Below, in pieces: positions 30,975 through 36,917 of a stretch of 64,000 bases of DNA; within the stretch, counting starts at the first letter, position 1, and each line of letters begins with the position of its first letter. A program made the translations under genes and the position numbers. Source of the DNA: Desulfomonilia bacterium (GTDB lineage Bacteria > Desulfobacterota > Desulfomonilia > UBA1062); NCBI GenBank assembly GCA_036567785.1, contig DATCTV010000062.1:186001-250000 (forward strand), written 5' to 3'. The notes beneath the pieces are model-generated. The model saw only the letters and a program-made list of their open reading frames with translations, was not told the DNA's origin and ran no database searches.

Positions 30975-33092
30975 CTATGAGACTTTTCCGCCCGGTTCGG
31001 GGCTTCCGTCAAAAGTGCATATTTTAAGGTCGCTGCCTGCCAGGATCATTCCTTCCGAGAGGCCGAACTTCATCTGCCTTGCCTTAAGATTGGCCACTAC
31101 GACGACCATTTTTCCGATTAGAACGGACGGGTCCGGATATGCTTCTCTTATACCAGCAAATATCTGTCTGGGTCTTGTCTCACCCATGTCCACACTGAGG
31201 CGGATCATCTTATCGGATCCTTCGACGAGTCCTGCTTCAAGGATTTTTCCTGAGCGGAGATCAACTTTGGAGAAATCATCGATTGTAATGGTTCCTGTAG
31301 CAGTCCCCTGAGGTATAGGCTGCTTTGGTTCTGATTTTTTCGATTTGACGGGGCTGGTCTTATCGATTTTGGCCCAGGTGTCTTTTAAGGTAACGGTCCG
31401 GTTGAAGACAGGCTTTTCCTGAATTGAATCCTTTGAGTCTACGCAGAAATAGCCAAGACGCTCGAACTGGAAACGGGCCAAAGGCTTGGAATCTGCAAGG
31501 GACGGTTCGACAAATGAGCCTTCCATTCTCAGCAGAGATTCGGGATTGATGTAATCGAGGCTGTCCTTTCCTGTTTTTTCTGCTTCTGCCCCGGGGTTGT
31601 CGACAGAATACAGCCTGTCATAAAGCCTTATTTCTGCGGGTATGCCGTGAACCGCCGAAACCCAGTGCAGCGTGCCTTTCACCTTGCGGCCGTCAGGTGC
31701 ATTGCCCCCCCTTGTCATAGGGTCATACCTGCAAATCAGTTTCTTTATTCTGCCTGAAGAGTCTTTTATTACTTCTTTGCATGTAATGAAGTATGCTCCT
31801 CTGAGTCTGACCTCTCTGCCGGGCGAAAGCCTGAAAAACCTGGGAGAAGGGTCTTCCATGAAGTCGTCCTGCTCTATATAAATCTCACGGCAGAACGGGA
31901 CCTTGCGTGAGCCCATCTCGGGCTTGTCGGGATGATAGGCTATCTCGAAGTCTTCGTGCTGGTTTTCGGGATAGTTTTCAATAACGACCTTCAAGGGGTT
32001 CAGAACCGCCATCACCCTGGGCGAGCTGGAGTTAAGATCCTCGCGAATGCAGTGTTCAAGGAGCGCCATATCGACCGTGCTGTCCCTTTTTGCAACGCCG
32101 ATGCGATCGCAGAAATCCCTTATTGCGGAAGGTGTTACACCTCTCCTGCGAAGCCCGGATATCGTAGGCATTCTCGGGTCGTCCCAGCCCGAGACGATCT
32201 TTTTCTGTACGAGCTCGAGAAGTTTCCGCTTGCTCATGACCGTATAGTTGAGATTGAGCCTTGCGAATTCGATCTGCCTTGAGCGGAATATATCTAGCTT
32301 TTCCAGAAACCAGTCATATAGCGGTCTGTGGTCTTCAAATTCGAGCGTGCATATCGAATAGGTTATGCTTTCAATGGAGTCTGAAACCGGATGCGCATAG
32401 TCGTACATGGGATAAATGCACCATGCATCACCTGTCCTGTGATGGGTTGAACGCAGTATCCGGTAGATCACCGGGTCTCTCATATTGATATTGGGCGAGG
32501 ACATGTCGATTTTGGCCCGCAGAACCTTTGAGCCGTCGGGAAATTCACCTGCCCGCATGCGCCTGAACAGGTCGAGGTTCTCGTCGATGCTGCGATCTCT
32601 GTATGGGCTGTTCTTTCCGGGTTCGGTAAGCGTGCCTCTGTATTGTCTGATTTCCTCCGCACTCAGTTCGCAGACATAAGCAAGTCCTTTCTTGATCAAG
32701 AGTTCGGCATATTCGTAGAGCTTCTCGAAATAATCAGAAGCAAAATAGCACCTGTCCTCCCAGTCGAAACCGAGCCATCTGACATCCTCGAAAATAGAGT
32801 CGATGTATTCCTGGTCTTCCTTGCTGGGGTTTGTGTCATCGAAGCGCAGGTTGCACATGGCGTTGGGGAATTCGTTTGCAATGCCAAAGTTAAGGCATAT
32901 CGACTTTGCATGGCCGATGTGCAGATAGCCGTTGGGCTCGGGCGGAAAACGCGTGTGAACCCTGCCTCCGTGCTTGCCCGAGGCAATGTCTTCCCTGATT
33001 ATGGACCTGATGAAATCGGTTCCCTGCGGCTGGATGGCAGACTCTTCAGGGTGGGTGCCGTTCTTGTCTGAATGGCTGTTTTCGGTGTTCAT
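30975..33092 (-). CDS. glnS: glutaminyl-tRNA synthetase with C-terminal tRNA-binding domain
   Basis: A 705-residue class I tRNA synthetase that charges tRNA-Gln. It has [18 protein letters not shown] with the HIGH-type motif, the glutaminyl FDDTNP stretch and a KMSKS variant in TVMSKRKL. The GlnRS body ends near residue 560. The last 100 residues are an EMAP-II/Arc1p-type tRNA-binding OB domain ([15 protein letters not shown] ... [25 protein letters not shown]), as found at the C terminus of many MetG proteins. This fusion is unusual for GlnRS; the better known bacterial extension is YqeY. The start at 33092 is preferred (GGAGA upstream) over an ATG at 33152. Confidence 0.93.
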
Positions 33093-33249
33093 ATAAAATG
33101 GTCTCCGGATGAGTTTATTCGGCTTGATGCAAGCCTTGAGGCTATATAACACAGGAGGAGAGTGCTGTTAAGTCCAATGACCGGAAGATACATAATTGTA
33201 TCCGTCAGTGTCCTGCAGGTTCAGGGCTGAGCCGGAGGCGTGTTTATGC

Positions 33250-35313
33250 CTATCCCATTTTCGCCATCAGGATAATGCTGGATCTTGGCTGCACTTTGTA
33301 AAATCTGCCGTGTTCGGCAGGGGCGTTATCCGGTTCGAGAAAGTCATCCGGAGATTCAAGGAAGGTGTCGACGATTCTGTGCCAGAGCATCGGGGTCTTT
33401 AGCCTTGGAAGTTCGAAATCAAGTGCCTCCCAGTATGAATTGAGGATGACATGCAGCTTCTCTCCGAACAGGGGATGGGTCAGTGTGAATGCAAGAGAGT
33501 GCGAATTGTAACTGAAATCGGGTTTGCCGATTTTTATACCGTGCCAGTTTATGTATGCCTTTGTACTGCTGTATGTGCTCGAGAGTATATGCTCATCCTG
33601 AAATATGCGGCATGGTCTTATGATTTTGTTCAGCATGGTGACAAACCTTAGCAACCCGGCGTTCGACTTTACCATATCCCAGTCGAACCATGTCATCTCA
33701 TTGTCCTGACAGTATGTATTATTGTTGCCTCTCTGCGTACGTCTTACTTCGTCTCCCATAAGAATCATCGGAGTGCCCTGGGAAGTGCTGAGTATGGTAA
33801 AGAAGTTTTTTATCTGCCTCAATCTCAACCTTTCGATATCGGGATCGTCTGTGCTGCCTTCAGCGCCGCAATTCCAGCTGAAGTTGTCCGTCATGCCGTC
33901 GCTGTTGCCCTGCAGATTGGCTTCATTATGCTTTTCATTGAACGATACGAGGTCGTTCATGGTAAATCCGTCATGGCAGGTGATGAGATTGATGCTTCTG
34001 TAAGGCTCTCTGTCTGGCCTTGTGTATATGTCCGGGCTTGCTATGATGCGTGAAGATAATTTCTGGACGGTTCCCTCATCACCCTTGACAAATCTCCTGA
34101 CATCATCCCTGAACTGGCCGTTCCACTCTGCGAACCTGCTGCCTATGAATTTGCCAAGCTGGTACAATCCAATTGCGTCCCATGCTTCAGCAATGATCTT
34201 TGTTCCGGCAAGCACGGGTTCGGATTCAATTGACCAGAGAAGCGGCGGATTATCGAGCGGTTCACCGTTTTCTCCGCGGCAGAGGACTGATGCCAGGTCA
34301 AACCTGAAGCCGTCAACATGCATCTCGGTCACCCAGTATTTAAGGCACTCAAGGATCATTGTCCTGACAATCGAGAAGTTTGCATTGATCGAATTTCCGC
34401 ATCCCGAGTAATTCTCATATTTTGAATGGTCAGCCTGAAGGATATAGTATGCATAATTATGAAAACCTTTAAGCGAGAGGGTCGGGCCTTTTTCGTCGGC
34501 TTCGGCTGTATGGTTGAAAACCACATCGAGTATGACCTCTATACCCGCCGCATGCAGTGCTTTGACCATGTCCCTGAATTCATTGACCGGGCCGAGCGGG
34601 CTTCTATCAAAGCTGTAGGAGCTGTGCGGGGCGAAAAAGGCCACAGGGCTGTAACCCCAGTAGTTTGAAAGGCCGGGTGGAGCCTCCTGGTCGTCAAACT
34701 GCTGTACGGGCATCAGTTCGACTGCGGTAATTCCGAGTTCCCTCAGGTACGGTATTTTTTGAATGAGACCCGCATAGGTCCCCCTTTTACCCTGAGGGAT
34801 TCCCGAATTGGGGTTTTTTGTAAATCCTTTTACATGAAGCTCATATATGATCGATTTGGAGTGCGGTGTCATCAGGGGCCTGTCGCCGTTCCAGTCATAA
34901 CCGGTGGTATCGACTACAACCGACTTCATGCAGCAGCCGATATTGTCAAAATGAAGTTTCTTGGCAGCCTCCCTGTCGTATCCGTCAGTGACTATGGCCT
35001 TTGAATAGGGGTCTATCAACACCTTGCTCCTGTCAAACCTGTGACCCATGGCAGGATTATAGGGGCCGTCAACACGGTAGCCGTAGAGCTGACCCGCTTC
35101 AATACCGGGAACGAGACAGTGCCAGTAGTAGAACGTCTTATTTTTATCCGGATCTAATTCTATGACAAGCGGCTCGGTGTCGGCGGGATTATCAAAGAGC
35201 AGGAGTTCGACGGAGCGGGAATTTTTTGTAAAAATGCAGAAATTAACGCCCGAAGGAGTAACTGTTGCGCCAAGCGGATAGCTCCTGCCGGGCAGTGCCT
35301 GGAATTCTTTCAT
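33250..35313 (-). CDS. glgX: glycogen debranching enzyme
   Basis: A 687-residue GH13 isoamylase/GlgX-type enzyme that cleaves alpha-1,6 branches of glycogen. The N-terminal carbohydrate-binding module 48 region opens with GRSYPLGATVTPSGVNF. The catalytic residues are visible: DVVFNHT, nucleophile Asp339 in GFRFDLAS, acid Glu376 in IAEAWD, and CHDGF. The length is standard. The ribosome site is moderate (AAGGTG). The upstream gene on the same strand is the selenoprotein at 35425-35640. Confidence 0.93.
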   Translation of the reverse strand: MKEFQALPGRSYPLGATVTPSGVNFCIFTKNSRSVELLLFDNPADTEPLVIELDPDKNKTFYYWHCLVPGIEAGQLYGYRVDGPYNPAMGHRFDRSKVLIDPYSKAIVTDGYDREAAKKLHFDNIGCCMKSVVVDTTGYDWNGDRPLMTPHSKSIIYELHVKGFTKNPNSGIPQGKRGTYAGLIQKIPYLRELGITAVELMPVQQFDDQEAPPGLSNYWGYSPVAFFAPHSSYSFDRSPLGPVNEFRDMVKALHAAGIEVILDVVFNHTAEADEKGPTLSLKGFHNYAYYILQADHSKYENYSGCGNSINANFSIVRTMILECLKYWVTEMHVDGFRFDLASVLCRGENGEPLDNPPLLWSIESEPVLAGTKIIAEAWDAIGLYQLGKFIGSRFAEWNGQFRDDVRRFVKGDEGTVQKLSSRIIASPDIYTRPDREPYRSINLITCHDGFTMNDLVSFNEKHNEANLQGNSDGMTDNFSWNCGAEGSTDDPDIERLRLRQIKNFFTILSTSQGTPMILMGDEVRRTQRGNNNTYCQDNEMTWFDWDMVKSNAGLLRFVTMLNKIIRPCRIFQDEHILSSTYSSTKAYINWHGIKIGKPDFSYNSHSLAFTLTHPLFGEKLHVILNSYWEALDFELPRLKTPMLWHRIVDTFLESPDDFLEPDNAPAEHGRFYKVQPRSSIILMAKMG

Positions 35314-35403: not shown

Positions 35404-35424
35404 AAACCGGCTCACGGCCGGTTT
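35404..35424 (-). terminator. hairpin after the selenoprotein gene, possible second SECIS
   Basis: On the minus strand AAACCGGC pairs with GCCGGTTT around the loop CGTGA. It starts right after the TAA of the selenoprotein gene, and its loop begins 17 nt after the second UGA, which is the usual distance for a bacterial SECIS. It can also act as a transcription terminator; on the plus strand it is followed by a short T run. Confidence 0.5.
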
Positions 35425-35640
35425 TTATACACCTCAGGACCCGTTGTAACCTACAGTGGCCTTGCCGTTTTCGACAACAACAGGGACCCTCCTTACACCA
35501 CCGGAATATTTGAGGAACTCGTTCATTCTCGATGGGTCTTTCCTTACGTCGACGTACTCAGCCCTATCTCCATAGGCCAGCCTGGCCTGGTCGGTATAGG
35601 GTCAGCCCGATTTCCCGAAAATCAAGATTTTATTATCCAT
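35425..35640 (-). CDS. glutaredoxin-like selenoprotein with two in-frame UGA codons (Uxx-star type)
   Basis: Read through two TGA codons, this frame gives 71 residues: MDNKILIFGKSG-U13-PYTDQARLAYG ... a VPVVVENGKATVGYNGS run, then U69-G-V and TAA. The text is a thioredoxin-fold glutaredoxin: a first strand, a redox motif U-P-Y-T where CPYC is usual, and the cis-Pro motif RVPVVV. It agrees with the Uxx-star glutaredoxin-like (seleno)protein family of anaerobes, whose C terminus is Sec-x-x-stop. AAGGAGG lies 5 nt before the ATG. A SECIS-like hairpin follows the first UGA (35602-35604). Standard gene calling would miss it. Likely a thiol/selenol redox protein; partner unknown. Confidence 0.85.
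35562..35601 (-). promoter_or_regulatory. bacterial SECIS-like hairpin after the first UGA
   Basis: Directly after UGA13 the RNA can pair CCCTAT (35596-35601) with ATAGGG (35562-35567). At the top, AGGCC and GGCCT (35574-35588) enclose the loop AGGCT. The loop begins 18 nt after the UGA. In the E. coli fdhF SECIS the loop AGGUCU begins 17 nt after the UGA, so the size, place and loop GG agree well with SelB recognition. Confidence 0.75.
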
Positions 35641-35798
35641 ATATTCCTCCTTAGTTTATATTTGCAAAATAGTCCGAAGATGACCTGATGCCAAATTATC
35701 TTATCGGATATTTTTAACCATTTTATTACATCGATATTGTTTCAAGGGCATGATTCCGCACTTGTTCATTTTGTAGGTTATGATAAAAACAAGTGATT

Positions 35799-36917
35799 AT
35801 GGATATACTTCAGGAATACATTAAAAGTAATATTGTGCAATCATTTTGCATAACCGGCAGGCCTCTTGATCCTCTGCGCATAGGAAACGGCCACATAAAC
35901 GATACATTCCTGATCAAGGTTTGTGAGGGATCGGGTCATGATTATGTGCTTCAGAGAGTAAACGGAAAAGTCTTCAGGAATATCCCGGGGCTGATGGAAA
36001 ATATCAAAAGGGTTACATCACACATTAGAAGCAGGATTGAAAAAATGCCAGGCTCGCAACCCGACAGAGAATGTCTAACGCTGATACCGGCAATCGACGG
36101 GAAATCATATTTTCTGGATGAAAAAGGCGATTACTGGAGGATGTATATATTTATAAAAGACAGCCACAGCTGTGATATTGTAAGAACTGCTGAACAGGCC
36201 TTTGAAGGCGGAAAGGCTTTCGGGTGTTTCCTGGCAGGCCTTGCCGATCTGCCGGGCGGGCCTCTTAATGAAACAATACCTGATTTCCATAATATAGAAA
36301 AAAGACTCAATGACTTTTTCAGCATTACCATGAATGATCCCCTTAACAGGGCAGCATTGGCAAAGCATGAGATTGCCTTTGTCGAGAAGAGGGCCTGCCA
36401 GATGATGAAGATTCCTGATCTGATAAGAACAGGAAAAATCCCTCTGCGCGTCACACATAACGATACCAAGTTCAACAATGTGCTTCTCGATGAGAAAGAC
36501 AGGGCGCTTTGCATCATAGACCTGGATACCGTAATGAACGGGTGCGTGCATTATGACTTCGGCGATTCTATAAGAACGGTCACTAACACTGGAGCCGAGG
36601 ATGAAAACGATCTTGACAGGGTGTCGATGGATATCGGGCTTTTCGAGGCTTATGCAAAGGGATTCCTTTCCGAGATGGCAGGGCACCTGAACGGTGATGA
36701 GATCGATAACCTTGCATTATCATCCGGTCTTATGACCTTTATTATCGGGCTCAGATTTTTAACCGATTATATCAATGGCGACAAATATTTCAGGATTCAT
36801 TATCCCGAGCAGAATATGGCTCGTACAAGGGCACAGTTCAAGCTGATAGAGAGCATGGAGCAACAGTATGAACAGATGCAGGGGAAAATAGACGATATCA
36901 TCAGGGAGTGCAGATAA
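35799..36917 (+). CDS. aminoglycoside-phosphotransferase-fold sugar kinase (NahK-like)
   Basis: A 372-residue kinase of the APH/choline kinase fold. It has GNGHINDTFLI at the N terminus, the catalytic loop as RVTHNDTKFNNVLLD (HxDxxxxN form) and the metal-binding DLDTV with YDFGDSIR. This combination is seen in N-acetylhexosamine 1-kinase and related sugar kinases. A GTG at 35793 is an alternative start; neither has a clear ribosome site. The next gene on the other strand is a sugar-isomerase-like barrel, in keeping with sugar metabolism, but the substrate is inferred. Confidence 0.8.
   Translation: MDILQEYIKSNIVQSFCITGRPLDPLRIGNGHINDTFLIKVCEGSGHDYVLQRVNGKVFRNIPGLMENIKRVTSHIRSRIEKMPGSQPDRECLTLIPAIDGKSYFLDEKGDYWRMYIFIKDSHSCDIVRTAEQAFEGGKAFGCFLAGLADLPGGPLNETIPDFHNIEKRLNDFFSITMNDPLNRAALAKHEIAFVEKRACQMMKIPDLIRTGKIPLRVTHNDTKFNNVLLDEKDRALCIIDLDTVMNGCVHYDFGDSIRTVTNTGAEDENDLDRVSMDIGLFEAYAKGFLSEMAGHLNGDEIDNLALSSGLMTFIIGLRFLTDYINGDKYFRIHYPEQNMARTRAQFKLIESMEQQYEQMQGKIDDIIRECR

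Follow-up and report, generated by a model that had tools for sequence, protein, structure and literature searches.

A predicted two-selenocysteine, glutaredoxin-like protein of UXX-star family 1 with a putative SECIS element beyond its stop codon

The question raised by this locus is whether a short minus-strand frame interrupted by two TGA codons is a real gene and, if so, how each UGA is read. An initial annotation of the window (the whole 64,000-nucleotide stretch of DNA analysed) had proposed a hidden selenoprotein gene here, and retranslation reproduced its coordinates, minus strand, frame, TGA codons 13 and 69 and closing TAA exactly. The frame holds 71 codons, TAA being codon 72, and the 71-residue product, with U at both TGA positions, reads MDNKILIFGKSGUPYTDQARLAYGDRAEYVDVRKDPSRMNEFLKYSGGVRRVPVVVENGKATVGYNGSUGV. 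The features of the locus are as follows.

35425..35640, minus strand: predicted coding sequence, from ATG to TAA, of a double selenoprotein in UXX-star family 1 (translation, family match, Pfam, pN/pS)
35646..35652, minus strand: ribosome-binding site AAGGAGG (read from sequence)
35602..35604, minus strand: codon 13, a predicted Sec-UGA that opens the UPYT active site (translation; homologue alignment)
35434..35436, minus strand: codon 69, a predicted Sec-UGA for the third-last residue in the ending U-G-V-stop (translation; homologue alignment)
35562..35601, minus strand: putative bSECIS 1, within the coding sequence; its apical stem pairs AGGCCA with UGGCCU (35574-35588), and the loop GGC starts 19 nt past UGA13
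35404..35424, minus strand: putative bSECIS 2, entirely in the 3' untranslated region; AAACCGGC-CGUGA-GCCGGUUU, loop CGUGA 17 nt after UGA69

The AAGGAGG lies 5 bases 5' of the ATG, bearing out the ideal ribosome site and start that had been claimed, and a GGAGG-like site precedes the gene in most homologues. The gene had been placed between glgX and a kinase gene. The position holds, with a GlgX/isoamylase-type gene (33250-35313) as the 3' neighbour on the same strand, and the kinase gene on the 5' side is more precisely a divergent APH-family phosphotransferase gene (35793-36917). An Rfam search of the gene surroundings gave no match above threshold. Genome-wide reassignment of UGA was considered and rejected, since UGA closes 7 of the 26 long open frames of the 64-kb window as an ordinary stop. 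Elsewhere in the window (30975-33152) lies a GlnRS/GluRS-type tRNA synthetase with a fused C-terminal tRNA_bind domain (PF01588).

The identity of the product was assessed with family models, for which UGA was read as Sec and entered as Cys. With NCBIfam NF041114, "UXX-star selenoprotein family 1", the product reached 104 bits where the cut-off is 72, and a six-frame search with this model also hit the gene, at 89.4 bits. The wider Uxx_star model NF041212 gave 69.7 bits (cut-off 66) and Pfam Glutaredoxin (PF00462) 31.1 bits (cut-off 22.9), so that both the glutaredoxin-like frame and the Uxx-star membership suggested earlier were recovered. Replacing either Sec/Cys by Ser lowered the NF041114 score by about 6 bits each, and CPYC in place of CPYT lowered it by 4 bits, which indicates that the model expects Sec or Cys at both sites and Thr as the fourth motif residue. 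Codon 13 had been said to stand at the first Cys of a CPYC/CPYT motif; the Cys position is correct and the closest motif is CPYT, not CPYC. Beyond the score, the UGA is third from the end in a U-x-x-stop arrangement, and a UxxT motif occurs together with two Sec codons, as the family definition describes.

Known systems place the gene further. The product shares with UXX-star family 1 its length, its UPYT motif and its two Sec, one of them as the third-last residue; here GYNGSU replaces the usual GYGGSU, and otherwise nothing essential differs. Uxx-star families 2 and 3 and the HUGP/GUXX-star fusion are related in fold and share the C-terminal UXX-stop, but the product falls far under the cut-offs of NF041211 (42 against 100 bits), NF047338 (46 against 97 bits) and NF045501 (HUGP/GUXX-star; 37 against 325 bits). 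As in the classical Sec glutaredoxin of UxxC type, Sec would open the active site of a glutaredoxin fold, whereas here Thr takes the place of the resolving Cys, a second Sec lies near the C-terminus and the last helix is absent. A 2026 review lists the family in its Table 1 as 'Distant Grx-like protein 1 (UXX-star selenoprotein family 1)', NF041114, UxxT, with two Sec (PMC13188914). For this entry the review cites its reference 61, an ocean-sampling study (PMC2398784), in whose main text the name UXX-star family 1 was not found. As a family with precisely this pair of Sec residues has been catalogued before (PMC13188914), the gene adds a member to a kind already known.

Selenocysteine decoding requires dedicated machinery, and all four components, proposed earlier as a check, were found in the same genome (3.96 Mb, 97% complete): selA at 500 bits, selB at 359 bits, selD at 378 bits and tRNA-Sec at 66.5 bits with a UCA anticodon, ARAGORN agreeing on the last. 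The selD gene (L048, about 1483-2415) has one in-frame TGA, in the motif GAGUACK, from which the SelD of this genome is probably itself a selenoprotein. Across the phylum selA is too common (269 of 297 genomes) for its correlation with the UXX-star family to be informative.

Homologues were widespread. The NF041114 cut-off was passed by 20 of 60 relatives' genomes, in almost all of which TGA stands at both positions, and by 75 of the 297 genomes of the phylum; the nine relatives with names are MAGs labelled Nitrospirae, Deltaproteobacteria, Syntrophus and Pelotomaculum. A set of 96 homologues was aligned, many of them akin to one another and a few of them close copies. Codon 13 is TGA in 81 of these and a Cys codon in 15, with no other residue, and the C-terminal TGA is present in 96/96, a count that is partly by construction as the site was taken as the first in-frame TGA past residue 50. 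The GG[ST]-U context of this Sec does align across homologues, and no Cys form (GG[ST]C) was seen at the C-terminal site among the 96. Codon 13 thus shows Sec or Cys and codon 69 shows Sec, the residues expected of true homologues. A conserved operon around the gene was looked for among the relatives and was not found.

Under the standard code the frame has two in-frame stops, as would a glutaredoxin gene that had decayed through two nonsense mutations. Both stops, however, are found at these positions across dozens of genera, and pN/pS between the gene and 35 homologues is 0.24-0.51; the frame is under purifying selection by this measure, and the homologues diverge as those of a protein gene do. 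Decay is vanishingly improbable on this evidence. As judged from the family match, the machinery and the homologues, which together uphold the hidden two-UGA gene, 35425-35640 is a real gene for a glutaredoxin-like protein with two predicted Sec residues, of UXX-star family 1. One genome (G051, L037) has the gene split across two frames, either a damaged copy or an assembly error, and another (G017, L020) carries two tandem double-Sec copies about 220 bases apart.

A second concern is the last UGA, which lies three codons before TAA in a genome where UGA is an ordinary stop. If UGA69 were a true stop, the product would have 68 residues and one Sec (codon 13), with Gly-Val-stop left untranslated. 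Yet most of the 96 homologues retain GV or similar and then a stop after this codon, and the C-terminal UGA is never swapped for UAA or UAG among them. The published family also has two Sec (PMC13188914), and a covarying hairpin, described below, stands at SECIS distance behind UGA69. Termination at codon 69 is extremely unlikely given these observations. The codon that follows U-x-x is TAA in 27, TAG in 18 and TGA in 38 of the 96 homologues, so that in 38 members UGA also serves as the true stop directly after Sec and two codons. In a related branch with UPFC or UPYV (L035, L036, L108, L115-L119, L124, L125), about ten extra residues precede a GGTUPV-like Sec site, and most members have their stop not two codons after Sec but further on, partly within the presumed SECIS hairpin.

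The bacterial SECIS rule requires the apical loop to measure 3-9 nt, to have G in its first two positions and to lie 16-37 nt past the UGA (PMC13188914), and both Sec-UGA codons of the gene are followed by hairpins that fit it. The first folds at -19.6 kcal/mol (z -2.2), and a hairpin of this type follows codon 13 in most TGA homologues, with the loop usually at 18 nt. TGA members had the stronger codon-13 hairpins, with a mean of -5.3 versus -3.6 in Cys members (p = 0.007, uncorrected for relatedness). Because bSECIS 1 overlaps conserved codons and some Cys-form homologues retain it, it is the less independent evidence.

The second hairpin, bSECIS 2, folds with z -2.3 to -2.8. Over the 96 homologues the best 3' hairpin averaged -9.2 kcal/mol, compared with -2.3 in dinucleotide shuffles, and reached -5 kcal/mol or below in 86% of homologues versus 20% of shuffles. 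Its loop lies 16-25 nt from the C-terminal UGA in nearly all 96, with the loop G kept. Covariation was assessed on 25 distinct sequences picked for similar loop spacing, a choice that favours a clean alignment and somewhat favours hairpin-bearing sequences. In this set 82.9% of stem cells were paired, against 59.0% in shuffles and 32-42% when the columns were slid by 1-3, and two-sided changes occurred in 57 cells (shuffle mean 19.9) and at all eight pairs; RNAalifold agrees with this covariation. It might be argued that the hairpin is merely a transcription terminator and that decoding at UGA69 uses no dedicated SECIS, as the stem is GC-rich, lies beyond the stop codon and has a T-run some 10-15 bases further on. 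A terminator scan called none at the 3' hairpin, however, and most homologues have no T-run behind it, while the loop G and the loop distance from UGA are held. We consider a terminator very unlikely, and by its pattern of change the UXX-star 3' hairpin is a natural putative SECIS kept by selection.

A precedent for this arrangement is an engineered thioredoxin reductase whose bacterial SECIS works from the 3' untranslated region (PMC10778597). As here, that protein has Sec near the C-terminus and its SECIS past the stop; the construct was engineered for E. coli, whereas the UXX-star 3' hairpin is natural and conserved. In the mechanism that we propose, SelB and Sec-tRNA would decode UGA13 with the aid of the hairpin inside the coding sequence, and UGA69 via the second hairpin just beyond the UAA stop. 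Taken together, the gene very probably encodes a functional UXX-star family 1 double selenoprotein, a judgement on identity and decoding (with catalytic detail apart) in which Sec insertion itself is what we infer.

The AlphaFold2 model (pLDDT 83.4, pTM 0.70) shows a thioredoxin fold in the order beta-alpha-beta-alpha-beta-beta, lacking the last helix, and is weakest at the C-terminus (pLDDT 62-70). The best Foldseek matches in the PDB were glutaredoxin, NrdH and thioredoxin-like proteins (probability about 1.0, with E only 5e-3 or worse), and sequence matches in the PDB comprised 20 chains, all glutaredoxins or thioltransferases. The turn before Sec69 presumably corresponds to the Gly-Gly glutathione loop of glutaredoxins, which adjoins the active site, and from this placement Sec69 may resolve Sec13. 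The protein would be a short thioredoxin fold that ends after its last strand, with the Sec13 of UPYT, where helix 1 begins, as the most likely attacking residue. Sec69, following the Gly-Gly-type turn, would most likely be the resolving partner that replaces the missing second Cys of CPYC, and a selenenylsulfide or diselenide could form during thiol-disulfide exchange or the reduction of small oxidants. We give this attacking and resolving pairing about an even chance.

The main rival concerns the catalytic part only and holds that Sec13 and Sec69 bind a soft ion (arsenic or mercury, for example) and that the protein is no redox enzyme. Metal binding has been suggested for UXX-star Sec residues (PMC13188914), UPYT offers no resolving Cys, and a few relatives (L029, L112, L116, L118, L125; flanks within 1.4 kb) have near the gene a frame recognised by eye as an ACR3-type arsenite transporter. 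Most relatives have no such neighbour, however, no metal-resistance gene adjoins the UXX-star gene in the window, and the glutaredoxin fold and the conserved Val-Pro suit redox work. Ion binding thus appears rather unlikely, though it deserves to be kept in view, and the most likely predicted activity is that of an oxidoreductase with a Grx fold in which Sec13 and Sec69 would act jointly. It is possible, although we hold this only tentatively, that the family combines a natural diselenide couple of Sec13 and an indispensable C-terminal Sec with a SECIS in the 3' untranslated region, and that in many members SECIS distance alone would separate a UGA read as Sec from a UGA read as stop three codons later.

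Genes of this type are overlooked by ordinary gene callers, and the window provides one more clean case. Bacterial SECIS elements are usually stated to lie in the coding sequence. Against this statement, the compensatory changes in the UXX-star 3' hairpins suggest that a bacterial SECIS need not sit there, and the members in which UGA as Sec and UGA as stop stand three codons apart would be ready test material for discrimination by SelB.
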